Below, one piece after another: positions 1,417 to 14,802 of a DNA stretch of 64,000 nt. The stretch comes from Lysobacterales bacterium (GTDB lineage Bacteria; Pseudomonadota; Gammaproteobacteria; Xanthomonadales; SZUA-38): NCBI GenBank assembly GCA_028285525.1, contig JANQOZ010000001.1, positions 47,667 to 111,666 of the forward strand, written 5' to 3'. The notes under the pieces were generated by a model, which was not told the DNA's origin, made no database searches, and saw only the letters and a list, made by a program, of their open reading frames with translations. Every line of letters begins with the position of its first letter. Position 1 is the first letter of the stretch. The position numbers and the translations under genes were made by a program.

Positions 1417-2241
1417 ATGAAGGCAATTGGACAGGCGCTGCTGCTGTTCTTAACGCTGTTGTGGGCTTCGAAGGCCGCTGCTCAGCCCAACGACGTGATT
1501 TTCATCGGCGACTTTGAGCCACGAGACTTCGTGTATCAGCCCAATGAGCCGCTGGACGTCCTGTTTTTCTGCGAGCTGCTCTACACCGATGACAACACGC
1601 TCTCGCAGAATCGCTACTACTTCGATTTCGCCTTCGACGGCGGAGTCCAGGGTGGCTTTCGCGTAGACACCGGGGACTTTGTCACCGTCAACGGCAGCTA
1701 CACCATCACCAACGGGCAAATCACCTTCGACGCAACCAACGGTTTCGGCGCCGATTTTGCGATGACCACCGACACGATCACGCCGAGATTGGGCATTCCC
1801 GGCTTTTTTGGGGCGACCGGCAACGGGCTGGGGCGGCCGGCGCAGCTTGCGTGCATCGCCATCGGGCACGGCTACGATACGGCGACCGAAGTGTACGAAC
1901 GCTACGAGTGTCAGGACCAGCCGACCGCCGCCGGTACCTACAGCAACGTGATTGAGCTCAACGCATTTGATTCAACCATCAATGTGTTCGTGCCCGGGGC
2001 CGCATTTCGGCAGCGCGATTTTTTTGCCTCGGGCACCACAACGGGTGACCCAACGCTGATCGAGCGCAACGACTTTGGCATCTACCGGCGCGATGGAAAC
2101 CGCGTGTTCCTGGATTTCACGCTGGGCCCGCTGCCGCTGAACTTCAGCGACTGGAACACCGCCACCGCGGACGCATTGAACAACGCACTGGCAATCGACG
2201 AGTTTGATCCGCCGCTGCCGCCCTGCCAGCGAGTGAACTGA
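1417..2241 (+). CDS. Exported hypothetical protein, 274 aa
   Basis: The protein starts MKAIGQALLLFLTLLWASKAAAQ, a good Sec signal peptide with cleavage expected after AAAQ or AAA. The mature domain is about 250 residues with many Asp, Asn, Thr and aromatic residues, typical of a secreted beta-rich fold. Cysteines fall in the middle and near the end (C-E-L, A-C-I, Y-E-C, P-C-Q) and may form disulfides. No enzymatic motif is recognised. The ATG at 1417 is chosen because the signal peptide starts exactly there; an AAGGG stretch lies about 10 bp upstream. The gene converges with 2248..3915, the two stop codons being only 6 bp apart. The minus-strand ORF 1450..1869 inside it is a shadow. Confidence 0.75.
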   Translation: MKAIGQALLLFLTLLWASKAAAQPNDVIFIGDFEPRDFVYQPNEPLDVLFFCELLYTDDNTLSQNRYYFDFAFDGGVQGGFRVDTGDFVTVNGSYTITNGQITFDATNGFGADFAMTTDTITPRLGIPGFFGATGNGLGRPAQLACIAIGHGYDTATEVYERYECQDQPTAAGTYSNVIELNAFDSTINVFVPGAAFRQRDFFASGTTTGDPTLIERNDFGIYRRDGNRVFLDFTLGPLPLNFSDWNTATADALNNALAIDEFDPPLPPCQRVN

Positions 2242-2247
2242 GCGATC

Positions 2248-3915
2248 CTACAGCGGCTCCTCGAAGCCGTCGAAGAACAAAGGATCGGGCAGCCCGGTGT
2301 TGCCCCTCGGTGAGCTGAACAGCTCTACGACCCCGTCGGCAAGCTGATCGGCACCATAGATGATCCGGGATCCGTCTGGACTCACGTCAAAGAACGCCAC
2401 GCTGCCGCCGCTGACCAGCGGCGCGTTGATTTTCTGGATGGCGCCACCTTCGATCGACACGATGAACAGCTCGCTGACGCCCGGCGTATCCCGGTCCGCG
2501 AGAAACACAACGGCCCGGCCATCCGGAGTGATGACATAGCGGGTGATGCCGGTGCCCGCGGGAAATCCGTCGACCAGTGTCGTTACGGGTCCGCCGCCGA
2601 ACGGGACGCTGAACAATGCATTGACGGGTGGTTGACCTTTCGTAGCAACGCCACCGTCTTTGCCCGCCTGGCCAGGGACTGTGGCGTACACGACGGCCCT
2701 GACCTCATCGGCTAACTCGAAGGTACTGACAAAGTCACGATTCGACAATGGGGCATTCAGTTTGGTCGAATTGCCGCCGCCCGGCGGAACGCTGAAAAGA
2801 TCATTGGAAGCCTGGTAAAAGACCGAGCTGCCGTCAGCGCTGAGGACGAATGGTCCGACACTTCCCAACATTGGATCGCTCAATTTGACGCCCCCTCCAC
2901 CGCCGATGAGAACGCTGTACAGTTCAAGAAGGTTGTCCGTTTCCTGATCCGCCACGTAGAGAACCCGCAACCCGTCTGGGCTGATCTGGAACCGGAATAC
3001 CCGCCCGCCGCTGACGAGCGGGCTGTTGAGTGTCGTTATGGGGCCGCCATTAATGGGGACGCTGAATAACTCGTCGGTTCCAAGCTGGTTCACGGCGGCC
3101 AGGTAGAGCACGGTCGAGCCGTCGGGATGGATTCGAAAGTCGGATCCGTTCACGTCGCCATTCGCGGACAGTGGCTGGTTGAGCTTGGTCACGATACCTC
3201 CGGCCGCAGGTACGCTGTAGAGCTCCTGCACACGGTTAGTGTCCTGATCTGCAACGTAGACCACGGTGCCGCCGTCCGGACTGAAGATCGGATCAAAAAT
3301 GATTTGCCCGCCGCTGACCAGGTCATCGTTGAGCTTCGTCACCGCGCCCCCGGATGCGGGAACGCTGTAAAGTTCGATCACGCCGTTCCGCGTCTGGTCG
3401 CCCGTATAGATGACTCTTTCCATATTGGGGCCAAAGAAAAAATCTCTGATATCTCCTCCCGCCGGCAGCGGGTCATTGAGTTTCTCCACGTTGCCGCCCT
3501 CGATCGGGACGGTGAACAGCTCGAAGACGTCCTCGGAGTCTTGAGAGGCGACAAAAAGGGCTTTGGTGCCGTCCGGGCTCAGGAGAAAGCCGTTAAACCG
3601 AACGTCGCGCCCCCCGTCCAGCGGTTCATTCAGCTTGGTCGGCGCGCCGCCGCCGATGGACACGCTGTAAAGCTCACGCACCTCGTCGATGTCCTGGTCG
3701 GCCAGGTAAACGACCCTGACGCTGTCGGCGCTGACGGCGAAGAGAAGGACCTCACCTCCCTCGACCAGCGGTCCATTCAGTCTCACCGATTCACCCTGCG
3801 CAAACGCCGACACTGGGATCACAAGCAGCGAGATGAACCACGCCAGTACCAGCCAGACATAGGGCCGAAATGCCAGCCTTGGCCTCTCCAAACAAAATTC
3901 CATTTTGCTATGCAT
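2248..3915 (-). CDS. Exported TolB/DPP6-like beta-propeller protein with DGFE tail
   Basis: The sequence is built from about nine repeats of roughly 45-50 residues. Each carries an SPDG-type turn followed by V-x-Y-x-A-D-Q-x-x-x-x-x-x-E-L-Y/F-S-V, the pattern of WD40-like PD40/TolB propeller blades. An N-terminal hydrophobic segment (YVWLVLAWFISLLVIPVSAFAQ) looks like a signal peptide with a long n-region. No catalytic domain follows the propeller, unlike true dipeptidyl peptidases, so a binding or surface role is more likely than hydrolysis. The protein ends PDPLFFDGFEEPL, one of several F-x-D-x-F-E tails in this region. ATG 3915 is used; an in-frame ATG at 3903 is equally possible. Neither has a strong Shine-Dalgarno sequence. 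Confidence 0.8.
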   Translation of the reverse strand: MHSKMEFCLERPRLAFRPYVWLVLAWFISLLVIPVSAFAQGESVRLNGPLVEGGEVLLFAVSADSVRVVYLADQDIDEVRELYSVSIGGGAPTKLNEPLDGGRDVRFNGFLLSPDGTKALFVASQDSEDVFELFTVPIEGGNVEKLNDPLPAGGDIRDFFFGPNMERVIYTGDQTRNGVIELYSVPASGGAVTKLNDDLVSGGQIIFDPIFSPDGGTVVYVADQDTNRVQELYSVPAAGGIVTKLNQPLSANGDVNGSDFRIHPDGSTVLYLAAVNQLGTDELFSVPINGGPITTLNSPLVSGGRVFRFQISPDGLRVLYVADQETDNLLELYSVLIGGGGGVKLSDPMLGSVGPFVLSADGSSVFYQASNDLFSVPPGGGNSTKLNAPLSNRDFVSTFELADEVRAVVYATVPGQAGKDGGVATKGQPPVNALFSVPFGGGPVTTLVDGFPAGTGITRYVITPDGRAVVFLADRDTPGVSELFIVSIEGGAIQKINAPLVSGGSVAFFDVSPDGSRIIYGADQLADGVVELFSSPRGNTGLPDPLFFDGFEEPL

Positions 3916-4144
3916 TCAACCGTCCCGGACCAGCCCATTAGAAAACGGCGCTGGGCGAAGCTTGGCCAGGCCGCTTCGCCGCGCACTCGAGTATGAGCGT
4001 GCATGACCAGCGTTTGAGCGACCGTGGTAATCAGCGTTGAATCGTCTGACAGAACGCCTATCGCGTTTGGCCGTGGTTTAGGTAAGCGGGGTTGGGGCTT
4101 GGCACTGGTGGGGGCGGTCGAGAACTGAATTGGAGAATAAGAAT

Positions 4145-4173
4145 GCCGCTGGGGAAGAAGTTTCCCCAGCGGC
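4145..4173 (-). terminator. Hairpin downstream of the phytase-like gene
   Basis: A perfect 12-bp stem (GCCGCTGGGGAA / TTCCCCAGCGGC) with a 5-nt loop sits 37 bp beyond the stop codon of 4210..7026. On the minus strand it is followed by an ATTCTTATTC stretch, which is T-rich but not an uninterrupted T-tract. It is probably the transcription terminator of that gene. The rest of the 294-bp gap to 3915 shows nothing else I can name. Confidence 0.6.
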
Positions 4174-4209
4174 CTTGGCGTCGTTTCGGTAACGAGGTTT
4201 CGCCTGGCC

Positions 4210-7026
4210 TCAGTCGTCGCCTTCGAAGCTGCTGTTGAAGATCGTGTCGACCGAGATGTCGTAGAGCGTGGTCGTGAAACTCACCTCGTTGGCGATGCCA
4301 ACCATCGGCTTGCCTTCGGGACCGGTGAACACCACGATGCCCTCGGGGGCGAGATCCCGGGCCAGCGTTGGGTCAATCAGCAGCGCATCTTCGTCAAACG
4401 CCTGGGTGAAGTCCCGGTTGTTGACGTACTGGAGGAACGTCACGTTGCGAGGGTCGGTCACGTCATACGCGGCCACGCCGCCGATGCGCTCAAGGCCGAC
4501 ATAGGCCACCACACGGCCATCAGGCAACGTAGCGACGGCCAGCGCTTCCGGCTCTGGACCCTTGTTGTCGCTGCGGCTTTCCAGACTCGGACCTTCATCG
4601 TTGTTGGAGTTGAAGTGGTCCGGAAAGGCGGCGGCGGTTCGCTGCTCAAGATCGTCACCGCTGTCGTACACAAGGTTGCCAAACCGATCCCAGATGGTAA
4701 ACGAGCGGGCACCATACACCTGCAGCCGCTCGAGCTCCGGGTCATCGTCCAGATTACCGTCGACCGTCGAGGCACCCAGCCGGCCGAGCTGCTCGTTCTG
4801 CTGCAGATCGGTCGCGTTGGGGAAGACGGTCGGGTCCAGCGTCAGATCGCCGATCCGCTCGTCCTCGCCGCGATCGTCCCCCTCGTTGGCGGTGACGAAG
4901 TAGGTATTGCCGTCAGCGTCGGCGTAGGTCGCGATCGTGTCGGGCATGAACATGCCCCAGACCGGCCAGTTGGTGATGTTGATCGCGTTGTCGCGATCGG
5001 ACGCATCCAGACCGGCGGGCTGTGTGAAATCGATCAGGCCCAGGACAACCGGTGTCGGCTCCGGGTTGAGCGGCACGCTGCCGTCGACCGGGATCGGGGT
5101 GTCGAGCAGGCCAAAGTCGTTGTCGTTGAGCACCGCGAGACGACCGTCCGGCAGGAGCGCCAAACCTTCAGGCTTGTCGCCAGCCTGATAACCGATCGAC
5201 GGCAGGTTGGTGATTTTGACTTTATCGACCGGCCTGATGCCGAGCCCCGCGAGATCATCCGGCGTGTGTTGCTCAAGCGTCAAGCCTGCGTTGAGCGCCG
5301 GTGCGCTGGGATCACGCAGGTTCGTGGCACCCAGCAGGCTGATCTTGGAAATCGGCTTCTTCGCTGTGGCGCTGACCGCCGAATCGCGTTCGATCACGTA
5401 GAACTCGCTGTTGCCCGCATAGACAGCATCACCGATTTTGTCGACATTCCCCTCGCGGAACGCGGGCTTATTGAGCACGTAAACATATTCGGCGACCACC
5501 GACCCGTCAGCCGGGTCGATGCCGAGCATGCGAATGATACGAGAGGCGTCACCGGCGGCGCGGTCGGGGTTGGACAGCGGCGTTTGGATAAACGCATAGA
5601 GAATGCCGGCATCCGTATCCAGGGCCATCGCCTCAAAGCCGCGGTTGCGGCGCCGGTTGGCGTATTCCGCCGGCAGCGTTTCGCTGCCATAGGTGCCAAC
5701 GGGCTGACCAGCGGCGGCCGCGGTGCCTTCCGGGATGTAGCGGTTCAGCAGCTGACCGGCCGGATCGAACTGGTAAATCGCCGGACGGTACTCATCCACC
5801 ATCCAGTAGTTGCCGGCGCCGTCGATCACCACACCTTCGAGGTCCGCACCGAACTCATCGAGCGGCAGCGCGTTGCCATTCAGATCCACCGGCTCTTCGT
5901 CTGCCCCATCGATGTTCGGCAACCCGGTGATGGGCGTCGTGCCGTCCGCACGGGTGAGCAGCAGCGTGTCGGTGATGCTGATCGTGTTGTCGGTCGCCAG
6001 CTCGAAGCGGACGACGCGTGCCTGGTAGTCCGGCAGCACAAACGGGCGCTCCACCGCGCCGTCGTTGTCCACATCCGTCGGCTCCCCGTTCGGACCGCGA
6101 TCGGGCACGGTCACAAACTGCAGCGCGCCCGACGTGGCGTCCATGCCTTCGTACCAAAGACCTGAGAATCCACCAAGCAGAATCTCCTGGCCTGCGGGCG
6201 TTGTGCCCAGCACCGGGAGGGCGGGAAATTCGATGCTCGCGGCGGCCGGCAGCCCCCGGGAATGGTCTTTCAGACCCAAGGGCAGCACGTCCAGGACCGT
6301 TGCGGTGGCGAGATCAACAACGCCGACGGCGTTAGCTTCTTGAAGCGTCACGTAGGCGACGTCGCCTGCCGGCGAAACGGCCACATACTCAGGCTCCAGG
6401 TCGCGGCCGGCGACCGTGCCGTCAAAGATGCGGACACCGCGAGCACGCAGGGTTGCCTCCTGGCCGTCAAAGGCCGAGAAGTCCGCCAGCTGGGCTGTTG
6501 CCTTATCCAAACCCTCGGTCAGATCGATGACCGTCACCGAGCCGCGCGGGTCGGTGCCATTCGGTTCGCCCTCGTTGGCCGACAAAATGTAATTGCCGTC
6601 GGGGCTGAAAACCACGTTATCGGGCAGGACGCCGGCACCAAAAATTCGCAGCAGATTGCCGTCGGGATCAAACACCGCGATCACGCCTGGCGTCGTGGCG
6701 CTGGCGCTTTCGATGGCGGCGGCAATCAGGCCGTCGTTAGCGGCGACGCTGGTCACTCCCGCACCGTAGGGAGATACATCGATCTGCAGCAACAGCACCG
6801 GCGTATCGGGATCGCTGATGTCGATGACGTCCACAGTGTTGTCATTGGAGTTGGTCACGAACACCCTGCCCGTGCTGGAGTCGTGACTTAAGATCTCAGC
6901 GCCATTGCCGGCGAAGCTGCCGCGCAGGTCGAGCTGGAAATCCGGTGTGCCTGCGGTTGCAGTGATGGTGGCGGTGGCTAGGGTAATAGCCGCCGTCAGA
7001 GTTCGAAAACGGGGTTTATGGGTCAT
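4210..7026 (-). CDS. Exported choice-of-anchor I protein with nested phytase-like esterase domain
   Basis: This 938-residue exported protein has a signal peptide ending ATATITATAG. Residues 28-255 and about 672-925 together match the two halves of the choice-of-anchor I propeller family, which is related to alkaline-phosphatase-like beta-propellers. Seen motifs are NSNDNTVDVIDIS, SANEGEPNGTDPRGSV, NWPVWGMFMPDTIA and TANEGDDRGEDERI. The family's usual link LPLGFKDHS...GLDASDRD is split by about 415 residues resembling the 'esterase-like activity of phytase' family (GGFSGLWYEG, VPDRGPNGEP, DLEGVVIDGAGNYWMVDEYRPAIYQ). It is therefore a domain nested in a domain. The protein ends IFNSSFEGDD, a variant of the local F-x-D-x-F-E tail. 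An AAGG lies 8 bp upstream of ATG 7026. Extracellular phosphoester hydrolysis is plausible but unproven. Confidence 0.8.
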   Translation of the reverse strand: MTHKPRFRTLTAAITLATATITATAGTPDFQLDLRGSFAGNGAEILSHDSSTGRVFVTNSNDNTVDVIDISDPDTPVLLLQIDVSPYGAGVTSVAANDGLIAAAIESASATTPGVIAVFDPDGNLLRIFGAGVLPDNVVFSPDGNYILSANEGEPNGTDPRGSVTVIDLTEGLDKATAQLADFSAFDGQEATLRARGVRIFDGTVAGRDLEPEYVAVSPAGDVAYVTLQEANAVGVVDLATATVLDVLPLGLKDHSRGLPAAASIEFPALPVLGTTPAGQEILLGGFSGLWYEGMDATSGALQFVTVPDRGPNGEPTDVDNDGAVERPFVLPDYQARVVRFELATDNTISITDTLLLTRADGTTPITGLPNIDGADEEPVDLNGNALPLDEFGADLEGVVIDGAGNYWMVDEYRPAIYQFDPAGQLLNRYIPEGTAAAAGQPVGTYGSETLPAEYANRRRNRGFEAMALDTDAGILYAFIQTPLSNPDRAAGDASRIIRMLGIDPADGSVVAEYVYVLNKPAFREGNVDKIGDAVYAGNSEFYVIERDSAVSATAKKPISKISLLGATNLRDPSAPALNAGLTLEQHTPDDLAGLGIRPVDKVKITNLPSIGYQAGDKPEGLALLPDGRLAVLNDNDFGLLDTPIPVDGSVPLNPEPTPVVLGLIDFTQPAGLDASDRDNAINITNWPVWGMFMPDTIATYADADGNTYFVTANEGDDRGEDERIGDLTLDPTVFPNATDLQQNEQLGRLGASTVDGNLDDDPELERLQVYGARSFTIWDRFGNLVYDSGDDLEQRTAAAFPDHFNSNNDEGPSLESRSDNKGPEPEALAVATLPDGRVVAYVGLERIGGVAAYDVTDPRNVTFLQYVNNRDFTQAFDEDALLIDPTLARDLAPEGIVVFTGPEGKPMVGIANEVSFTTTLYDISVDTIFNSSFEGDD

Positions 7027-7088
7027 GTGCGCGCCTTTGATGACGTTTTAGTTAGCGGGGGAGCCGCAAGTAGACGGGACACGCTTTG

Positions 7089-7107
7089 CAAAACCGTTGC
7101 GGTTTTG
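7089..7107. promoter_or_regulatory. Inverted repeat upstream of the phytase-like gene
   Basis: A perfect 8-bp inverted repeat (CAAAACCG-N3-CGGTTTTG) lies 63 bp upstream of ATG 7026, in the 269-bp gap between two divergent genes. It could be a protein-binding site or an RNA hairpin in the leader of 4210..7026. On the minus strand it directly follows CTGTCAC, one good half of a PhoB box, but the second half is poor. I see nothing else definite in this gap. Confidence 0.4.
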
Positions 7108-7295
7108 TGACAGAGATATTGCAGGCTCGACATACCCCCGGCGGGATGGTTCGTTTATGTTGTCAGCCTAGCGATTGGGGTCCTGTAACAAGTCGCTTGG
7201 GCGCCCGTATTTAGCGTGAGCAGAGCGATCAAAGCGTTCAGCAGTTCTGGACTAAGCCCGAAACCACGGCCATACATTTGGATTGAGCGAAACCT

Positions 7296-8129
7296 ATGCG
7301 CGCCGAAACGACCCACCAGCCACGCCCCAGGTTCCAACCCTGGCAACGCAACCTGATTGTGATTCTGGTCTTCCTCATAGCCGACCAGCTGGCGTTTCCG
7401 CTCTACGAATCTCTGGGGATCGAGATGAATTGGGATTCGCTGACCGAGCGGTTTTTATTGAATCACAGCTGGCAGTTCCTTCCGCCGCTGGCGATCGCTT
7501 CGTTGTTTTTCGGTTTTCGCCGGGCGCCCTGGGCACTCGGACTGCAGGACAGCCTGTGGACCGGTCTGGCCGTTGGGGTGTTTTGTACCCTCCCTATGCT
7601 GATTGGCTACGCAGTCTTCGGGACCTTCAGCCCAGGCGAGCGGCCGCTATGGAGCCAAACGGCGTACTCGCTGTTCCCCGGCGTGTTCGAAGAGATCTTT
7701 TTTCGGGGCTTTTTGTTCGGGCTGCTGTTCCGCTTCGGCGGCTGGGGCTTTCTGCCGGCGAGCCTTCTTGGCGCGGTGTTCTTCGGCGCAGGCCATATGT
7801 GGCAGGGTGCGGATCTCGCCGAGACCGCGGGCGTTGTCGCCATCACCGCCACCGGCGCGGTGTGGTTTGCCTATCTGTACGCGGAGTGGGACGACAACCT
7901 GTGGGTGCCGATCACCTTCCATGTGCTGATGAACGCCTGGTGGGGGCTGTTTGCGATCAGCGATACGGCCCTCGGGGGCGCCGTGGGCAACATCTTCCGG
8001 TTCGCGACGATTGCGCTGTCCATTGCCGTCACTGTTTGGATGGTGCGGCGGCGAGGCTCAGGCTCCCGGGTCCGCGGGCGCTGGCTTTCGCAGCGCTCCA
8101 CCCCGGAGCCCCTCAGTTCGCCGGCTTGA
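7296..8129 (+). CDS. CPBP-family intramembrane glutamic endopeptidase
   Basis: This is a multi-pass membrane protein of 277 residues with the three hallmarks of the CPBP (CaaX protease and bacteriocin-processing) family. Motif 1 is EEIFFRG (E132, E133, R137), motif 2 is FFGAGHM, and motif 3 is HVLMNA. The glutamates and histidines form the intramembrane active site. Bacterial members cleave membrane-anchored or short peptide substrates; the substrate here is unknown. About six to eight hydrophobic segments are visible. Gene 8184..8936 follows 54 bp downstream on the same strand and encodes an exported HExxH protein, so the two may be co-transcribed. ATG 7296 is the only start upstream of the first transmembrane segment. 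The short ORF 7155..7346 on the other strand overlaps it and is a shadow. Confidence 0.9.
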   Translation: MRAETTHQPRPRFQPWQRNLIVILVFLIADQLAFPLYESLGIEMNWDSLTERFLLNHSWQFLPPLAIASLFFGFRRAPWALGLQDSLWTGLAVGVFCTLPMLIGYAVFGTFSPGERPLWSQTAYSLFPGVFEEIFFRGFLFGLLFRFGGWGFLPASLLGAVFFGAGHMWQGADLAETAGVVAITATGAVWFAYLYAEWDDNLWVPITFHVLMNAWWGLFAISDTALGGAVGNIFRFATIALSIAVTVWMVRRRGSGSRVRGRWLSQRSTPEPLSSPA

Positions 8130-8183
8130 GATCAGCACCCAGCCAGAGGCTAAGATGTCACGGCACTACACGAAGCGAGCCCC

Positions 8184-8936
8184 ATGAATCGAGATAAATC
8201 CAGCAAGGTGTTGGTTCTCGGCCTGACGCTATTTGCGCTGCAGGCCCTGGCGCAGCAGTCCGACCATCAGGGCTTCGCCATTGAGGCCAACGGAAAGCGG
8301 CTCGTCGTTCGCCCCCAAACACCTGCCGAGGCTTACGGATATCTGCAGCAAACCTTGAGTCAGATGAGCTTTTTCGACGCGAATGGATATGACGTGGCTC
8401 TGCCCGCTCATCAGGGCTTCGACGCGGACGGAGAGATCGGGAGCCTCAACTCGTTTGCCAGTGAGGTTTATCGCGAGGCGGATTTTGCTTCTGCCATGGC
8501 GAAACTGCGTGAACGCAAGCCCATGCTTCAGCAGGCCCTGGAGTGGTTCTCGACACTCGACGACTCGTTACCGTTTTACGTGCCAACGGAGTACACGGTT
8601 GTCCTGACGCTCTATGGCCCCGGTGGCTCCTACAACCCGGAATCGGCGACCATCACCATGCTCACAACGCCGGATGGGCGCTTCAAAGGCGGCGGAGGTG
8701 CTCACACGATTGTTCACGAGATGATGCACATCGCGACGGAAGAAACGCTGGTGCAGCGTTTTGAGCTATCACACTGGGAAAAGGAGCGGCTGGTGGACGT
8801 GCTGTGCCAGCGGGAGCTGGGCCACGTGCTGAAGGATTATCAGCTCCAGCCGCTGGGCGACGCGCAGCTTGGCGAGGTGATTACGGACGTGCCGCTGGCC
8901 GGGCTGGCCGCGGCCCTCGCCAAGTATCGCAAGTGA
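8184..8936 (+). CDS. Exported protein with HExxH zinc-peptidase motif, family not recognised
   Basis: The 250-residue product has a signal peptide (VLVLGLTLFALQALAQ). Residues 178-182 read H-E-M-M-H within IVHEMMHIATEE, the canonical HExxH zincin motif in a helical context. The third zinc ligand is not certain; candidates are E186/E187 just after it or a residue in the SHWEKERLVDVLCQRELG helix. Upstream stretches (ITMLTTPDGRFKGGGGAH) read like the edge strand and turn that often precede a zincin helix. It could therefore be a periplasmic metallopeptidase. I do not recognise the family and cannot rule out a non-catalytic homologue. It sits downstream of a CPBP protease and converges with a CBS-domain gene 13 bp away. 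Confidence 0.7.
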   Translation: MNRDKSSKVLVLGLTLFALQALAQQSDHQGFAIEANGKRLVVRPQTPAEAYGYLQQTLSQMSFFDANGYDVALPAHQGFDADGEIGSLNSFASEVYREADFASAMAKLRERKPMLQQALEWFSTLDDSLPFYVPTEYTVVLTLYGPGGSYNPESATITMLTTPDGRFKGGGGAHTIVHEMMHIATEETLVQRFELSHWEKERLVDVLCQRELGHVLKDYQLQPLGDAQLGEVITDVPLAGLAAALAKYRK

Positions 8937-8949
8937 CCCGCGCGCCGGC

Positions 8950-9396
8950 TCAACGGTAGGCGAAGTTACCGTTGATGTAGGTGGTCAGGTTCTGAATCTC
9001 GTCTTCCTTAGCACGCATCTTGTTCGTCACCAGTTCACCGATGCCGAGTACGCCAACGACCTTGCGGCCGCGGACCACCGGCAGGTGGCGGATGTTCTGT
9101 TGCCCCATGACGCTGAGACACTCATCCAGAGTGTGCTGTTCACCGACGGTAACCACATCGGCTGTCATAATTTCTGAAACCGGCGTGTCAACGGATGCCT
9201 TGCGCTCCAGAATGATCTTCCGTGCGTAGTCGCGCTCCGAGATAACGCCTGCGAGGTTGTCGCGATCGTCGACAACCACCAACGCACCGCAGTCCTTTTC
9301 AGCCATCAATTCGAGGGCTTCAAATACGGGAGCGTCTTGGCGAACGCTGAAGACGTTGCGCCCTTTTTCGTCGAGAAACTGGCTGACTGTCGACAT
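8950..9396 (-). CDS. CBS-domain pair protein
   Basis: A 148-residue cytoplasmic protein made almost entirely of two CBS domains. The first spans about residues 10-65 (ALELMAEKDCGALVVVDD then GVISERDYARKI). The second spans about 75-130 (MTADVVTVGEQHTLDECL, RHLPVVRGRKVVGVLGIGELV). Tandem CBS domains form a Bateman module that binds adenine nucleotides such as AMP or ATP and regulates partners. Stand-alone two-CBS proteins of this size are common in proteobacteria and their partners are mostly unknown. There is no signal peptide or extra domain. The gene is monocistronic by appearance, convergent with 8184..8936. Confidence 0.92.
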   Translation of the reverse strand: MSTVSQFLDEKGRNVFSVRQDAPVFEALELMAEKDCGALVVVDDRDNLAGVISERDYARKIILERKASVDTPVSEIMTADVVTVGEQHTLDECLSVMGQQNIRHLPVVRGRKVVGVLGIGELVTNKMRAKEDEIQNLTTYINGNFAYR

Positions 9397-9575
9397 GGCT
9401 TATCTCAAAATCTGATTTATGGCATCTCAAGGTGCACTAAGACGGGTGAAGAACGTGTGGAAACCCGGCGGCACCTTCCCTAACGCCAAGACTACGCTAT
9501 TTCGCGCAACTTCGACTGCCGAGCCTGTCCAGGAGGCTTTGCGGCGCTTCAGCCCAGCATTTTCAGGCTCATGGG

Positions 9576-10010
9576 CTAGGGCTGGCGCTCCAGCGAATTC
9601 GCAGCCGGTTTGTGCGTGACGCCAAGCTGGGTGATCAGCAGCGCGGCGCCGATCAGGGCAAAACCCTTGATAAACGACGCCTGTTGGATCACCCGCCACG
9701 CCTCATCGGTCGCATTCAGCATTTCATAGCCGTGGACAAGCACCGTGACCGGGAGAAGAAAAATCACCAGCAGCCAGCCGCCCAACCGAGGCCGCCAGTT
9801 GAACAGAACCATTATCGCCCCGGCCAGCTCAACGACACCCGAGATCAAAACCCAAAACTCGCGATACGGGACACCGTCGTGCATCAGCGCCACATAGCCT
9901 GGGATATTGGTGAAATGGGTGACACCGGACAGCAGAAACAGCAGGGTGAACAGCAGCCGGCCAGCCACCGTGATCAATGGATGATTGGGGAGTTGGCTCT
10001 CAGAAAACAT
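9576..10010 (-). CDS. DoxX-family membrane protein
   Basis: The product is 144 residues with four hydrophobic segments and the DoxX family pattern: an early LLFTLLFLLSGVTHF helix, the GVVELAGAIMVLFNW segment, and the FIKGFALIGAALLI segment. DoxX proteins are small inner-membrane proteins linked to redox stress and quinone or thiosulfate metabolism, but most have no known reaction. The gene is divergent from a tetR-type gene, with 118 bp between them holding two matching operator-like repeats. It is therefore a likely target of that regulator. The downstream region to the CBS gene (9397-9575) contains only shadow ORFs. Confidence 0.88.
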   Translation of the reverse strand: MFSESQLPNHPLITVAGRLLFTLLFLLSGVTHFTNIPGYVALMHDGVPYREFWVLISGVVELAGAIMVLFNWRPRLGGWLLVIFLLPVTVLVHGYEMLNATDEAWRVIQQASFIKGFALIGAALLITQLGVTHKPAANSLERQP

Positions 10011-10042
10011 CAGCTCGGGCCCTCCGGCAGCGATAATTATGG

Positions 10043-10052
10043 ACCACTCGGT
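10043..10052. promoter_or_regulatory. Operator-like repeat 1 (ACC-N4-GGT), DoxX/TetR intergenic
   Basis: ACCACTCGGT is a short inverted repeat of form ACC-N4-GGT. A second copy of the same form lies 42 bp away, about four helical turns, placing both on one face of the DNA. ACC-N4-GGT cores are a common type of TetR-family operator. It is proposed as a site for the adjacent TetR protein. Confidence 0.4.
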
Positions 10053-10084
10053 ATTTAACTTACCGCATGCCGACGAAATATTGA

Positions 10085-10094
10085 ACCGTTTGGT
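10085..10094. promoter_or_regulatory. Operator-like repeat 2 (ACC-N4-GGT), DoxX/TetR intergenic
   Basis: ACCGTTTGGT, flanked as GAACCGTTTGGTAC, is the second ACC-N4-GGT inverted repeat in this gap. It lies 35 bp upstream of the chosen tetR start at 10129, where it could overlap the promoter and give autoregulation. Confidence 0.45.
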
Positions 10095-10128
10095 ACGATA
10101 TTGGTCTCACATCGCCTGGAACGCACCC

Positions 10129-10761
10129 ATGCCGGCAAGCACCAAGAAGGCCAGTCGCGGACGACCCAAGACCTTCGATCGCGATCGCGTCGTCGCAGCC
10201 GCAATGGAACTGTGGTGGGAACGCGGACCGGGCCAGCTTTCGATCAATGAGCTGTGCACAACGCTCGGCATCGCTAAACCGGGCCTGTATCGCGAGTTTG
10301 GTGGGGAAGATGGCCTCATGGCGGCCGTGCTTTCACGCTACCGGACGACACGCATCGATCCGCTCCTGGATCAACTCACCCGGGAGCGACCGCTGGCGGA
10401 AGCCGTTCACGCACTCACGACCTGGCTGACCGCGCCCTCCGATTTTCCCGCCGGCTGTTTACTCGCAAAGACCCGGATGTCGCTCCAGCCAATGGGCGCC
10501 GAGGCAAAATTGCAGGTCGACGCGTTGCGTGACGGGCAAGTCGCCGGGTTAACTCAATGGATGGAGCGAGCAGCGGAACGCGGGGAACTTGCTGCAGGTG
10601 TAGACCCTCAGTTAGCGGGCAGGTATCTCGATACCCTGCTCACCGCACTGCTGACGCTGGTCGCGAACGCAGAACCCGCGAAGCTGGTGGCCGCGCAGAC
10701 GCGGCTGGCCTTTGCCGGAATCATGAAAACACCTGAAAGGAGCAACAAATGCGGGCAATGA
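10129..10761 (+). CDS. TetR/AcrR-family transcriptional regulator
   Basis: I place the start at ATG 10129 (MPASTKKASRGRPKTFDRDR), because the track's upstream extension crosses the operator-like repeats and does not look like protein. This gives 210 residues. Residues 15-60 form the TetR DNA-binding domain, with RDRVVAAAMELWWERG followed by the helix-turn-helix LSINELCTTLGIAKPGLYREFG. The C-terminal ligand domain contains FPAGCLLAKTRMSL, a pattern seen in TetR C-terminal domains that sense small electrophiles or quinones. The stop overlaps the start of the MDR oxidoreductase gene by 13 bp, so the two are co-transcribed. The divergent DoxX gene is the other likely target. Confidence 0.9.
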   Translation: MPASTKKASRGRPKTFDRDRVVAAAMELWWERGPGQLSINELCTTLGIAKPGLYREFGGEDGLMAAVLSRYRTTRIDPLLDQLTRERPLAEAVHALTTWLTAPSDFPAGCLLAKTRMSLQPMGAEAKLQVDALRDGQVAGLTQWMERAAERGELAAGVDPQLAGRYLDTLLTALLTLVANAEPAKLVAAQTRLAFAGIMKTPERSNKCGQ

Positions 10762-11738
10762 GGCAAAACGAATTTGGCCTGGCGGCCGACGTGGTGGAGT
10801 TGGTCGAGAGTCCGGATCCTAAGCCCGCTGAGGGTGAAGTGCTGATTCGTATCGAGGCTGCGGCGATGCATCTCGCCGACGTGAAGTTTGTCAGCGGCGC
10901 CTATGGGTTTCGGTTTTTTGGCGTTCCGCGATGGATGGGCGAGGAAGGAGTGGCGCGCATCGAGAGCATCGGCGGCGGCGTTGAGAACTGGCAGGTCGGC
11001 GACCGGGTGTTTGTCCCGCGCGGTATCGGCGCCTTTCGCGACTGTGCCTGCGTCGCGGCAACCGACCTCATGCGAGCGCCCGAAGGTGACGCGGACCAGC
11101 TGGCCCTCACGATGGTCAACGGCCTGACCGCGTTTCTGCTGCTGGAAGACTACACGCGCGCCCAGCCGGGAGAGTGGATTATTCAAAACGGCGCCAACTC
11201 GAGCTGCGGGCGCTATCTGGTCGCCCTGGCCCGCATGAAAGGGGTCAAGACGGTCTCGATTGTACGGCGTCCCGAACTCATCGAGGAGCTGCGCCCGCTG
11301 GGTGCAGACGTAATTCTGGTGGACAGCGGTGACCCCGACGACATGGCTCAGCAGGTGAGCGAGGCAACCGGCGGCGCGCCGGTGGTTGCCGGCATTGACT
11401 GCGTCGCCGGGCCGGCGACCGTTACGGTCGCCCGCTGCGTTGCGCAGAGCGGCCGGGTGATCAATTACGGATTTATGACCGGAGAGCCATGCCAAATGGC
11501 GTTTCACGACCTTTTCCTTCGCGAGGTGACGCTCGAAGGCATGAACATGAAACACGGCTATTCGCCGGAAGAGCTATCCGGCATCTATCAGCGCCTTGCC
11601 GACCTGATTGCCAGCGGTGATCTGCGGGCGGCCATTGCCGGCACCTATTCGCTCGATCGTTTTCTCGACGCCTATGCTCACCAGCAGCAAACCGGCGTGG
11701 ATCGACAGGGCAAGATCATTATTCGACCCAACGACTAA
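10749..11738 (+). CDS. MDR-superfamily NAD(P)H-dependent oxidoreductase (enoyl-thioester/quinone reductase type)
   Basis: This 329-residue protein has the medium-chain dehydrogenase layout: an N-terminal GroES-like domain (GEVLIRIEAAAMHLADVKF) and a Rossmann domain. The nucleotide-binding part reads IIQNGANSSCGRYLVALAR and KTVSIVRRPELIEEL. These match 2-enoyl-thioester reductase (MECR/ETR-like) members better than zinc alcohol dehydrogenases; the catalytic zinc ligands are absent. It probably reduces a carbon-carbon double bond or a quinone with NADPH. The start ATG 10749 has AAAGGAG 7 bp upstream and overlaps the end of the tetR gene. Co-transcription with a TetR regulator suggests induction by its substrate or a toxic relative. 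Confidence 0.88.
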   Translation: MRAMRQNEFGLAADVVELVESPDPKPAEGEVLIRIEAAAMHLADVKFVSGAYGFRFFGVPRWMGEEGVARIESIGGGVENWQVGDRVFVPRGIGAFRDCACVAATDLMRAPEGDADQLALTMVNGLTAFLLLEDYTRAQPGEWIIQNGANSSCGRYLVALARMKGVKTVSIVRRPELIEELRPLGADVILVDSGDPDDMAQQVSEATGGAPVVAGIDCVAGPATVTVARCVAQSGRVINYGFMTGEPCQMAFHDLFLREVTLEGMNMKHGYSPEELSGIYQRLADLIASGDLRAAIAGTYSLDRFLDAYAHQQQTGVDRQGKIIIRPND

Positions 11739-11753
11739 GGACCGCCCGTCCTT
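11737..11753. terminator. Weak hairpin between convergent genes
   Basis: AAGGAC-CGCCC-GTCCTT forms a 6-bp stem with a 5-nt loop exactly between the stop codons of 10749..11738 and 11754..13184. The T-tract is short on both strands, so it is at best a weak bidirectional terminator. Confidence 0.3.
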
Positions 11754-13184
11754 TCAGGGACAAAGCACCTGGTGGCATTCGAAAGAATCCAGAAAAATCG
11801 TATTGAACAGCGACGCCAGAAAGCCGGCATCGAGCTTCCACAGCTCGCGGCCGTCAACGCCGTTATTGCCTTCCCACAGCAGCGTATCGTTGACGACCCA
11901 GGCTAGAGGGCGCGGCGCCCCGTCCGAGGGACCAGGATAAACGTCACCGATCAGCGCCACGCCGCCGATGCTGCCGTTGGCCGCCCACCATTCGAAGCCA
12001 TGCTCGGGCGTCTCTGCGCGAAAGATGAGGTGGTTGTCGAAAACGACCGCGGGCCGAGGCGCAATACCCGCCGGGTCGCTGCTGATGGTCGCCACCAGCT
12101 CTGCATCGCTGCCGGAGACGCGCCAGAGCTGGGGACCGTCAGGCGATCTGCCGCCGAAATAGACGTGGCCGTTAAACTCCACGAACCGTTCGGGGTTGGA
12201 GTCAAACTCGCCGGGGGCAACGTCTGCGACCCTAAACGTACCGTCGAAGGTGCCGTCGCTACGCCACGGTTCCACACCGCTAGAGGGCGTTTCGCCGGCG
12301 AAGTACACCACGCCGTCAATCGGATCACCGGTAAATGCGTTGGAGGTGGTGTATCCGTTTTCAAAACCCGGGTTGATGTCCCGCACCAGCTGGGCGATGT
12401 CGCTGCCGTCAAGCAGGCGCCAGGGCTCTCGGCCAGCGGGCCCTCCTTCGGCACTGGCCATGAAGAGCCACCCCCCATCAACCGGCCAAAATCCGTTGCT
12501 GAAACTTAGCCTGACGTTATTTGAACCAAGGATCTCCGTAGCGATCTCACCGACCAGGCGGTGGGGTCGGGACCGAAGCGTTGGCGGCGTAACAGGCTTG
12601 GCGACCAGCAGTGCCGAGTTGGTACCGATGGGCGTCAGGGCATGAGGGTCGGAGCCACTCTGCGACCCGTTGATATCGACGTAGAGCACCGGGCCAGTGT
12701 TGGTGTTGAGCCACCAGATTTCCCGATCGCCGCTATTGTCACGGGCGTTGACCAGCACCCGGCCGCCGACGATCCCCAGCCAGCGCGGACTGGAGCTGGG
12801 CGGTCCGGCGAGAATATCAAAAACCGTCGGCACGCCCGGAAAGGCCAGCGTTGACCAAAACTCGCTTCCCGCCGCGTCGTCTCTGGCGTTGAACAAGGCC
12901 GCGTTGTTCAGGCTGCCCCGAAAGAGGGGATTTGAGCTGTCAGGACCCGTGCGCAGATCGGTCAGCAGCGTCGTACCCGCCGTCGAGCCGTCGCTGATCC
13001 AGGGTTCCGCGCCGTCGACACCGTTGTTGGCCCCAAAGAAAAACTGACCGCCGACGACCAGGCCGTCGATCTGGAACTGACCGTCAGGGCCCGGAAGAAT
13101 GTCTCGGACCATTACGGGCTGGGCCGCGGCCAGTCCCGAAACAAGAATGCCGGCGACTAGTGCGGCGATTCGGTCGATCTGCAT
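11754..13184 (-). CDS. Exported ELWxxDGT-repeat protein, copy A
   Basis: I shorten the track ORF to ATG 13184. A CAGGAG sits 8 bp upstream, and the resulting N-terminus MQIDRIAALVAGILVSGLAAAQ is a clean signal peptide. The 476-residue product contains ELWxxDGT-type repeats (EPWISDGSTAGTTLL, VEPWRSDGTFDGTF, FEWWAANGSIGGV, GRELWKLD), which form a propeller-like extracellular fold in large secreted proteins. No catalytic residues are apparent. It ends IFLDSFECHQVLCP, a F-x-D-S-F-E tail carrying two cysteines. The next gene, 13372..14802, is a colinear paralogue of exactly the same length. Function is unknown; surface binding is a guess. Confidence 0.85.
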   Translation of the reverse strand: MQIDRIAALVAGILVSGLAAAQPVMVRDILPGPDGQFQIDGLVVGGQFFFGANNGVDGAEPWISDGSTAGTTLLTDLRTGPDSSNPLFRGSLNNAALFNARDDAAGSEFWSTLAFPGVPTVFDILAGPPSSSPRWLGIVGGRVLVNARDNSGDREIWWLNTNTGPVLYVDINGSQSGSDPHALTPIGTNSALLVAKPVTPPTLRSRPHRLVGEIATEILGSNNVRLSFSNGFWPVDGGWLFMASAEGGPAGREPWRLLDGSDIAQLVRDINPGFENGYTTSNAFTGDPIDGVVYFAGETPSSGVEPWRSDGTFDGTFRVADVAPGEFDSNPERFVEFNGHVYFGGRSPDGPQLWRVSGSDAELVATISSDPAGIAPRPAVVFDNHLIFRAETPEHGFEWWAANGSIGGVALIGDVYPGPSDGAPRPLAWVVNDTLLWEGNNGVDGRELWKLDAGFLASLFNTIFLDSFECHQVLCP

Positions 13185-13371
13185 ATTGAAGACTCCTGCT
13201 GTTCCCAAGGCGCCGGGGGCCCAAAAACAGGGCCTGCCCATATTCCAACGCGCGCCCACAGCGGCTGCGCACAGGTTCTTCTCAGGAGATTGCGGTCTGG
13301 CCGGCTGGCCGACCGCATCGCGGAGTCACGGTGGACTGCTCTCGTCTGGCGGCAGAGAGGCTGAAAACGGG

Positions 13372-14802
13372 TCAGGGGCAGAGGGCCGGCACGCACTCGA
13401 AAGAGTCTTTAAAGATCTGCGTGAAAAGTGACTCCAGAAAGCCCTCATCGAGCTTCCAAAGCTCGCGACCGTCCATGCCGTTATCGCCTTCCCACAGCAG
13501 CGTATCGTTCACCACCCACGCCTCGCCGCGGGGTGAACCATCACCCGGCCCGGGGTTCACGTCTGCGATCAAAGCCACGCCACCGATGGTTCCGTTGGCC
13601 GCCCACCATTCGAAGCCGTTTTCGGGCGTCTGCGCTCGAAAGATCAGGTGGTTGTCGAAGACCAGCCAGGGTCGCGGTGCGGCGCCGTTGATGTCGCTGC
13701 TGATGGTGGCGACCAGCTCCGCGTTGCTGCCGGAGACCCGCCAAAGCTGAGGCCCGCTGGGCGACTGGCCGCCGAAATAGACGTGGCCGTTAAACTCGAC
13801 GAACTTCTCTGGGTCCGAATCCCGGTCACCCGTCGCAACGTCAGCAATCATAAACGTGCCGCCGCTCGTACCATCGCTCCGCCAGGGTTCGACACCGTCG
13901 TTAACGGTCTGGCCGGCGAAGTACACCACGCCACCGATCGGATCGCCCGTGAACAGGCCCGACGTGGCGTAGCCACTGTCGTTGCCCGGATTGATGTCGC
14001 GAACCTGCTGGGCGACGTCGCTGCCGTTTGGCAGAACCCAGGGCTCGAACCCATCCGCTTCCCCGTCGGCGGTCGCCATAAAAAGCCAGCCGCCGGCAAC
14101 GGGCCAGAAGCCGTTACGAAACGTGAGTCGGACACTGTTGGTGCCAAGAATTTCCGTCGCGGTATCTCCTACCAGACGATGGGGACGAGCGCCGACGGTG
14201 GGGGGCGTCACGGGTCGGGCAACCAGCAAAGCCGAGTTGGCGCCGATCGGCGTCAGCGCCTGCGCGTTGGAGCTGCCCTGGTCCCCATTGATGTCCACGT
14301 ACAGCACCGGGCCCGAGTTTGCGTTGACCCACCAGATCTCTCGCTCGCCGCTGCTGTCCGACGCTGACACCAGCACCCTGCCGCCGACGATGCCGAGCCA
14401 GGACGGACTCGAGTTTGCCGGTCCCGGGCGAATATCGTAGACCGTCGGGATACCCGGAAAGGCGGCAATGGAAAAGACCTCGCTGCCTGACGCATCGTCA
14501 AAAGCATTAAAGAAAGCCGCACCGCCCAAGCTGCCGCGGAAGGTTGGGAAGGACCCGTCCTGACCCATACGCAGGTCGGTGAGCTGCTGTGTACCCGCCG
14601 TCGTGCCGTCGCTGATCCACGGCTCGGTGCCGTCGTTACCGTTGTCCGCGCGGAAAAAAAACTGCCCGTCGTTGACAATGCCGTCCAGCTGCGACTGGCC
14701 ATCAGGGCCGGGCCAGATGTCCCGCACCATTTCCGGCTGAGCCATTGCTGATCCAAAGCCTAGGCAACCGGCAAGCAGAGCGACCATTCTATGGATCCAC
14801 AT
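13372..14802 (-). CDS. Exported ELWxxDGT-repeat protein, copy B (tandem paralogue)
   Basis: This 476-residue protein aligns end to end with copy A without visible gaps, and most positions are identical by eye. The similarity includes the signal peptide, the repeats (EPWISDGTTAGTQQL, VEPWRSDGTSGGTF, FEWWAANGTIGGV, GRELWKLD) and the tail IFKDSFECVPALCP. The start ATG 14802 has the same CAGGAG at the same spacing as copy A. The two lie in direct tandem with a 187-bp gap, so they arose by duplication. The differences are spread along the protein, which suggests both copies are maintained rather than one decaying. Molecular function is unknown. Confidence 0.87.
   Translation of the reverse strand: MWIHRMVALLAGCLGFGSAMAQPEMVRDIWPGPDGQSQLDGIVNDGQFFFRADNGNDGTEPWISDGTTAGTQQLTDLRMGQDGSFPTFRGSLGGAAFFNAFDDASGSEVFSIAAFPGIPTVYDIRPGPANSSPSWLGIVGGRVLVSASDSSGEREIWWVNANSGPVLYVDINGDQGSSNAQALTPIGANSALLVARPVTPPTVGARPHRLVGDTATEILGTNSVRLTFRNGFWPVAGGWLFMATADGEADGFEPWVLPNGSDVAQQVRDINPGNDSGYATSGLFTGDPIGGVVYFAGQTVNDGVEPWRSDGTSGGTFMIADVATGDRDSDPEKFVEFNGHVYFGGQSPSGPQLWRVSGSNAELVATISSDINGAAPRPWLVFDNHLIFRAQTPENGFEWWAANGTIGGVALIADVNPGPGDGSPRGEAWVVNDTLLWEGDNGMDGRELWKLDEGFLESLFTQIFKDSFECVPALCP

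Follow-up and report, generated by a model that had tools for sequence, protein, structure and literature searches.

The stretch of DNA considered here, a window of 64,000 nucleotides from a Lysobacterales bacterium (contig JANQOZ010000001.1, positions 47,667 to 111,666), raises the question of why exported proteins of different construction should end in nearly the same seven residues. Four such proteins lie in the window, and a search of the long open reading frames of these 64 kb for F.[DNS][GSD]FE returned four copies, all four of them C-terminal. The best reading of this tail, on sequence comparison, is that it would direct proteins to type II secretion or to display at the surface, as a targeting tag that is bound and not cleaved. 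Its terminal position, the signal peptides and unrelated domains of its carriers, its exchange with a known sorting signal, its order-wide spread and its co-distribution with one secretion system all speak strongly for a tag of the sorting type.

All four carriers and their tails are encoded on the minus strand, where the original prediction had placed them, and that prediction had rightly described the first two as different proteins and the last two as paralogues. The first carrier (2248..3915) is a TolB/PD40-type beta-propeller with a signal peptide (Pfam PD40, 1e-15; NCBIfam TolB, 1.5e-11), which ends in LFFDGFE (2260..2280) followed by EPL and the stop codon; in its AlphaFold model, built on a shallow alignment, residues 548-555 lie outside the fold, with a predicted local distance difference test score (pLDDT) <50. 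The second (4210..7026; 938 residues), again with a signal peptide, is phytase-like with a choice-of-anchor I domain (PF13449, 3e-43; PF22494, 2.5e-103; NF038117, 7e-146, over cut-off) and ends in IFNSSFE (4222..4242), then GDD and the stop codon. Its anchor-type domain ends at residue 914-924, immediately upstream of the tag, and as choice-of-anchor domains take their name from the varying sorting signals that adjoin them, the tag occupies the place where an anchor is expected. The third and fourth (11754..13187 and 13372..14802), which share 73% identity, are ELWxxDGT repeat proteins with signal peptides (TIGR04534, 2.8e-56 and 6e-56, respectively). The tag of the third is IFLDSFE (11778..11798), followed by CHQVLCP and the stop codon, and its start was placed at the ATG near 13187 as likelier than an upstream GTG; that of the fourth is IFKDSFE (13396..13416), followed by CVPALCP and the stop codon, and residues 462-476 of this protein lie outside the fold in an AlphaFold model (shallow alignment, pLDDT <50).

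The same tail recurs throughout the genome. The 6.23-Mb assembly was searched with a degenerate DNA pattern for [IV]-F-x-[DNS]-[GS]-F-E, with the reversed pattern as control, and the carriers were read from the loci fetched around all pattern matches. The motif was found 98 times and the reversed control once. A stop codon follows within 15 residues in 83 of the 98 motifs, against 3.4 expected (log10 P = -104), which bears out the C-terminal enrichment that the original prediction had proposed to count and disposes of the objection that the motif might be no more frequent at C-termini. The tag ends exactly at FE in 35 of these 83 copies, the others mostly running on for one to seven residues. 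Among the 15 motifs located elsewhere, six directly follow a predicted signal peptide (P = 1e-4; loci L041, L042, L057, L058, L076 and L117), as in ATGQS-IFADGFE-AP. A few motif copies are internal, between domains (L172, L099, L107, L080 and L072), and may be fusions, frameshifts or chance matches. Columns upstream of the tag hold little information except for D or E at position -2, and the consensus is roughly [D/E]-x-[IV]-F-x-[DNS]-[GS]-F-E. A degenerate ending, IFKDGYE, was observed on an exported neighbour protein (L062:817-2512, plus strand), so that the pattern counts are lower bounds. The window itself contains an N-terminal variant that the original prediction had missed: a probable fifth carrier (1417..2241, plus strand), an exported protein without any Pfam or NCBIfam family over cut-off, reads QPNDV-IFIGDFE-P after its signal peptide, the degenerate motif IFIGDFE (1498..1518, plus strand) standing a few residues past it. 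A CPBP-type membrane protease is encoded between the window carriers (7296-8129, plus strand).

The carriers are predominantly exported proteins. Signal peptides, called by a simple heuristic, are present in 69 of 76 complete carriers versus 128 of 310 other genes of the same loci (P = 5e-16). Within their C-terminal 500 residues, the 83 carriers match 66 Pfam and 49 NCBIfam families, each in at most 11 members; these include beta-helices, immunoglobulin (Ig) and cadherin repeats, FG-GAP, propellers, the ExeM/NucH nuclease, M36 and subtilisin-like peptidases, and choice-of-anchor domains Q (11), D (3) and I (1). Many belong to families that are elsewhere secreted or equipped with sorting signals (choice-of-anchor Q/D/I, ExeM/NucH, M36 peptidases). 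With dozens of unrelated domain families among the carriers, the tag can be put down neither to common descent nor to a last strand that they share, and the original prediction was correct in setting whole-protein descent aside. Even at E values as high as 10, the last 36 residues of 40 carriers matched no tag or CTERM model of Pfam or NCBIfam, while the same library detected IPTL-CTERM on other tails as a positive control. Neither a transmembrane helix nor a basic cluster was found in the tails after the tag, which extends to the genome-wide tails what had been remarked in the window. At the DNA level, 82 of the 83 tag copies are distinct, with free use of synonymous codons, so that it is the protein, over about seven residues, on which selection acts.

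The tag is nearly confined to the Xanthomonadales/Lysobacterales. Among 85,462 species representatives, IFADGFE followed by a stop codon occurs in 77 stretches, overwhelmingly from this order (Dokdonella, Marinicella, Pseudofulvimonas, Wenzhouxiangella, Chiayiivirga, Tahibacter, Pseudolysobacter and Lysobacterales metagenome-assembled genomes) and also in some metagenome-assembled genomes of other or broader names, e.g., Sedimenticola; when frames of 80 residues or more are considered, 77 of the 79 copies of the motif in these loci are C-terminal, most of them because the pattern was built that way. The stop-terminated pattern matched once in 271 Gammaproteobacteria from other orders, and that match itself contains a stop codon. 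Within the order, tag counts per genome are bimodal, and most of the scattered matches in tag-poor genomes lie inside proteins or in short frames. In one genus (f9/g11), five genomes seemed tag-poor despite a canonical type II secretion system, and the choice-of-anchor Q proteins of these genomes terminate in sequences such as IFNDRFEQP and VFQDRFEQP. The pattern with Arg at position 5 indeed occurs 28, 14, 56, 7 and 14 times in these five genomes, and 0-2 times elsewhere; in one of them (G036), 18 of 19 sampled copies are C-terminal and the remaining one follows a signal peptide, so that all 19 are terminal. Nearly the whole tag repertoire of this genus has Arg in place of Gly/Ser at position 5, and such a concerted one-position change over dozens of unrelated proteins points to a common reader, being otherwise hard to explain.

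Presence of the tag follows that of one type of secretion system. For the marker GspG (TIGR01710), a canonical form, scoring 150 bits or more, was distinguished from an Xps-like one, with a border chosen after the scores had been seen; genomes at least 90% complete were compared, those with at least 10 matches being counted as tag-bearing. Without correction, 33 of 37 genomes with canonical GspG bear the tag, versus 3 of 19 without it (P = 8e-8), and these figures become 34/34 and 2/22 after correction (P = 3e-13). Of the genomes with canonical GspG that looked tag-poor, five carry the DRFE variant described above; four without tags all belong to family f2, and their GspG locus also holds large D/E/F-type genes. 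In the opposite direction, the exceptions G033 and G054 were found to possess canonical GspD. The exceptions that remain after correction are G048, whose five sampled matches look like chance, and G055, with one clear C-terminal tag among six. The only member of family f8 that has neither GspG nor GspD (G020) shows 3 matches, where the family otherwise shows 38-96. In tag-bearing genomes the secretion loci are split, gspGHIJK lying mostly beside rsmE (15 of 17 loci) and gspCDEF before ftsEX (6 of 8 loci), with rsmE, suhB and ftsEX recognised by eye from the sequence. In the genus with Arg-containing tags, no secretion component stands out by its divergence. A search for co-changing positions returned 30 of about 626 conserved columns that switch in all R-tag genomes; one of these, column 72 of GspD, in a turn of the N0 domain, is Gly in 23 of 23 G-tag genomes and D, E or N in 5 of 5 R-tag genomes (loci L277-L284 and L297-L316). 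Asn also occurs at this position in other type II GspD proteins and, as one of 30 switched columns, column 72 is a weak lead only.

The original prediction had likened the tail to PEP-CTERM and GlyGly-CTERM sorting signals and had suggested a search for a co-occurring processing enzyme. The likeness holds for the likely role and fails for the architecture, since the tag has no helix and no basic end and occurs also directly behind signal peptides. As for the enzyme, exosortase (TIGR02602) was found in none of 61 genomes, its XrtH subfamily not having been searched separately, and rhombosortase (TIGR03902) exceeded its cut-off in five of the 61, all of them tag-poor; both are ruled out as partners of the tag by this distribution, and the partner that does co-occur is the type II secretion system. 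In two tag-rich f8 genomes (G010 and G028), a rhombosortase-like protein scores just under or below the curated cut-off (60 and 83 bits), and that of G010 lies on the same contig as canonical GspD. Choice-of-anchor Q homologues without the tag (L221, L225 and L227) end in IPTL-CTERM, over the curated cut-off; the tag and a named sorting signal can thus stand in for one another behind the same domain. IPTL-CTERM tails do occur in the order, even though the general exosortase model has no match in the 61 genomes, and their cognate enzyme may be of the XrtH type.

From a mechanistic point of view, the reading that we favour, and hold to be about evenly balanced between right and wrong, is that of a short linear tag, read non-covalently, which would route exported proteins out of the cell via the split-operon type II secretion system. 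The carriers would be folded proteins that have crossed the inner membrane by means of their signal peptide and present the tag on a free end. A dedicated putative reader would bind the tag, without cleavage and without a membrane helix, and would route the protein out through the ancestral split-operon system of the order (gspCDEF in one place and gspGHIJK(LMN) in another). We infer that the reader is shared, that reading is non-covalent and that the step concerned is the recognition of cargo by the type II secretion system. Because the tag is tied to one secretion subclass and is exchanged with surface signals, its reader would most likely reside in type II secretion itself or be a receptor on the surface that this secretion serves; GspC, GspD or the tip of the pseudopilus may be put forward as guesses. 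We advance more tentatively, as plausible yet short of probable, the stricter idea of a true linear type II secretion signal, in which a seven-residue peptide at either free end would be read directly by one system subclass, with a joint change, in one genus, of the reader and of the tags (Gly/Ser to Arg) on nearly all its cargo. Several points weigh against routing by the split-operon system. Both corrections of the co-distribution were made after the exceptions had been seen, though on evidence other than tag counts, and one genome (G058, 77% complete) has tags while the canonical system was not found in it. The second type II system, of the Xps-like form, occurs in untagged genomes, so that type II secretion in general does not require the tag; and as all the genomes come from a single order, no more than about four losses appear independent. 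No conserved extra gene that might be a candidate reader was seen in the secretion loci, where gene calling was crude. Retention at the surface after secretion, moreover, fits nearly as well.

Other origins of the tail have to be weighed against this proposal. The motif has hydrophobic residues at the positions expected of a short strand and might belong to a fold, as the final strand of one common domain or of the carriers' individual domains; this is very improbable, as none of the 66 Pfam families is widely shared, the tails match no model, the tag lies outside the fold in both AlphaFold models, and N-terminal copies and a genus-wide switch at one position exist. The original prediction had itself named a common last strand as the finding that would overturn it. 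Many copies in one lineage could likewise suggest a DNA repeat inserted at gene ends without any function in the protein, which we find hardly credible, the least so of all the explanations considered, in view of the distinct DNA versions and free synonymous codons, the lack of any conserved flanks seen, the codon-level conservation of F, F and E and the maintenance of the motif across many families. Periplasmic PDZ proteases read free C-terminal peptides, and the tail might thus mark proteins for quality control or turnover by a periplasmic protease with affinity for free ends; we deem this quite improbable, because it leaves unexplained the exchange with a sorting signal, the N-terminal copies and the tie to one secretion system.

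Two further explanations accept that the tail is an address and differ on what happens to it. A sortase-like enzyme might cleave at the tag and join the protein to a lipid or glycan, since one signal on many proteins, and its position within them, resemble LPXTG, PEP-CTERM and GlyGly-CTERM (PMC3237569). Such cutting and anchoring is unlikely: about 40% of the tags end at FE and leave nothing to cleave off, cleavage behind a signal peptide would remove the tag alone, helix and basic end are missing and, in the 61 genomes searched, exosortase is absent and rhombosortase exceeds its cut-off in tag-poor ones alone. A bound peptide, by contrast, fits both positions. Alternatively, the carriers might be secreted by the type II system through other features, the tag then binding an outer-surface receptor that holds the protein on the cell, which we consider possible, if somewhat doubtful. 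In its favour, choice-of-anchor and adhesin-like domains are frequent among the carriers, the tag and IPTL-CTERM replace each other, a need for the secretion system would follow equally, and a precedent exists in the GlyGly-CTERM proteins of Vibrio, type II substrates that are retained on the cell surface (PMC6219818, PMC13393428). On the other hand, no receptor family is known, the tag bears no lipid- or wall-linking feature, and secreted enzymes such as the ExeM-type nuclease are also tagged.

The choice of cargo by type II secretion is a long-standing open question, for which no linear signal is accepted. The same seven-residue tag at the end, or in a few cases the beginning, of about 100 unrelated exported proteins, almost only in one order and only with one type II secretion system, points to an as yet undescribed address label on proteins that leave the cell. 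With the tag present on about 100 proteins per genome, following one secretion subclass and switched in one genus, the question becomes directly testable. Irrespective of its precise role, the tag represents a so far unlisted signal of the sorting type, belonging to a whole bacterial order; modelling it would assign thousands of proteins whose location is unknown to a single functional class.

Searches of the open-access literature brought up no description of such a tag, and comparison with known systems underlines its particular features. The C-terminal domains of type IX secretion also mark secreted proteins at their C-terminus in one bacterial group, here the Bacteroidota; unlike the seven-residue tag, they are folded domains with a secretion system of their own. 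Type II substrates are held to lack a universal linear signal, and the signals described for single substrates (VesB Ig fold, PelI Fn3, pullulanase), which share with the tag the candidate process of substrate choice by type II secretion, are structural and substrate-specific (PMC12369372). The GlyGly-CTERM/rhombosortase system (TIGR03501/TIGR03902) resembles the tag in that a single C-terminal signal is found on numerous unrelated exported proteins of a genome and in that carrier families overlap (ExeM, M36, rhombotarget-like), but it has a Gly-rich motif, a helix and a basic end, and an intramembrane protease cleaves it; type II secretion is generally present in species with rhombosortase, without any subclass of it being marked (PMC3237569), whereas the tag follows one. 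IPTL-CTERM and PEP-CTERM (TIGR04174, TIGR02595; exosortase, TIGR02602) are likewise C-terminal on exported proteins, the former behind the same choice-of-anchor Q domain in related genomes, but both have a helix and a basic end, and the tag does not match their PEP or IPTL motif. MYXO-CTERM/myxosortase also has dozens of surface-sorted carriers per genome (PMC11980579) but belongs to a different phylum, with a cysteine motif, a helix and a basic end, and processing by a CPBP-type protease. The tag differs from all these named anchor signals of bacteria in having no helix and no basic end, and in occurring at either terminus.

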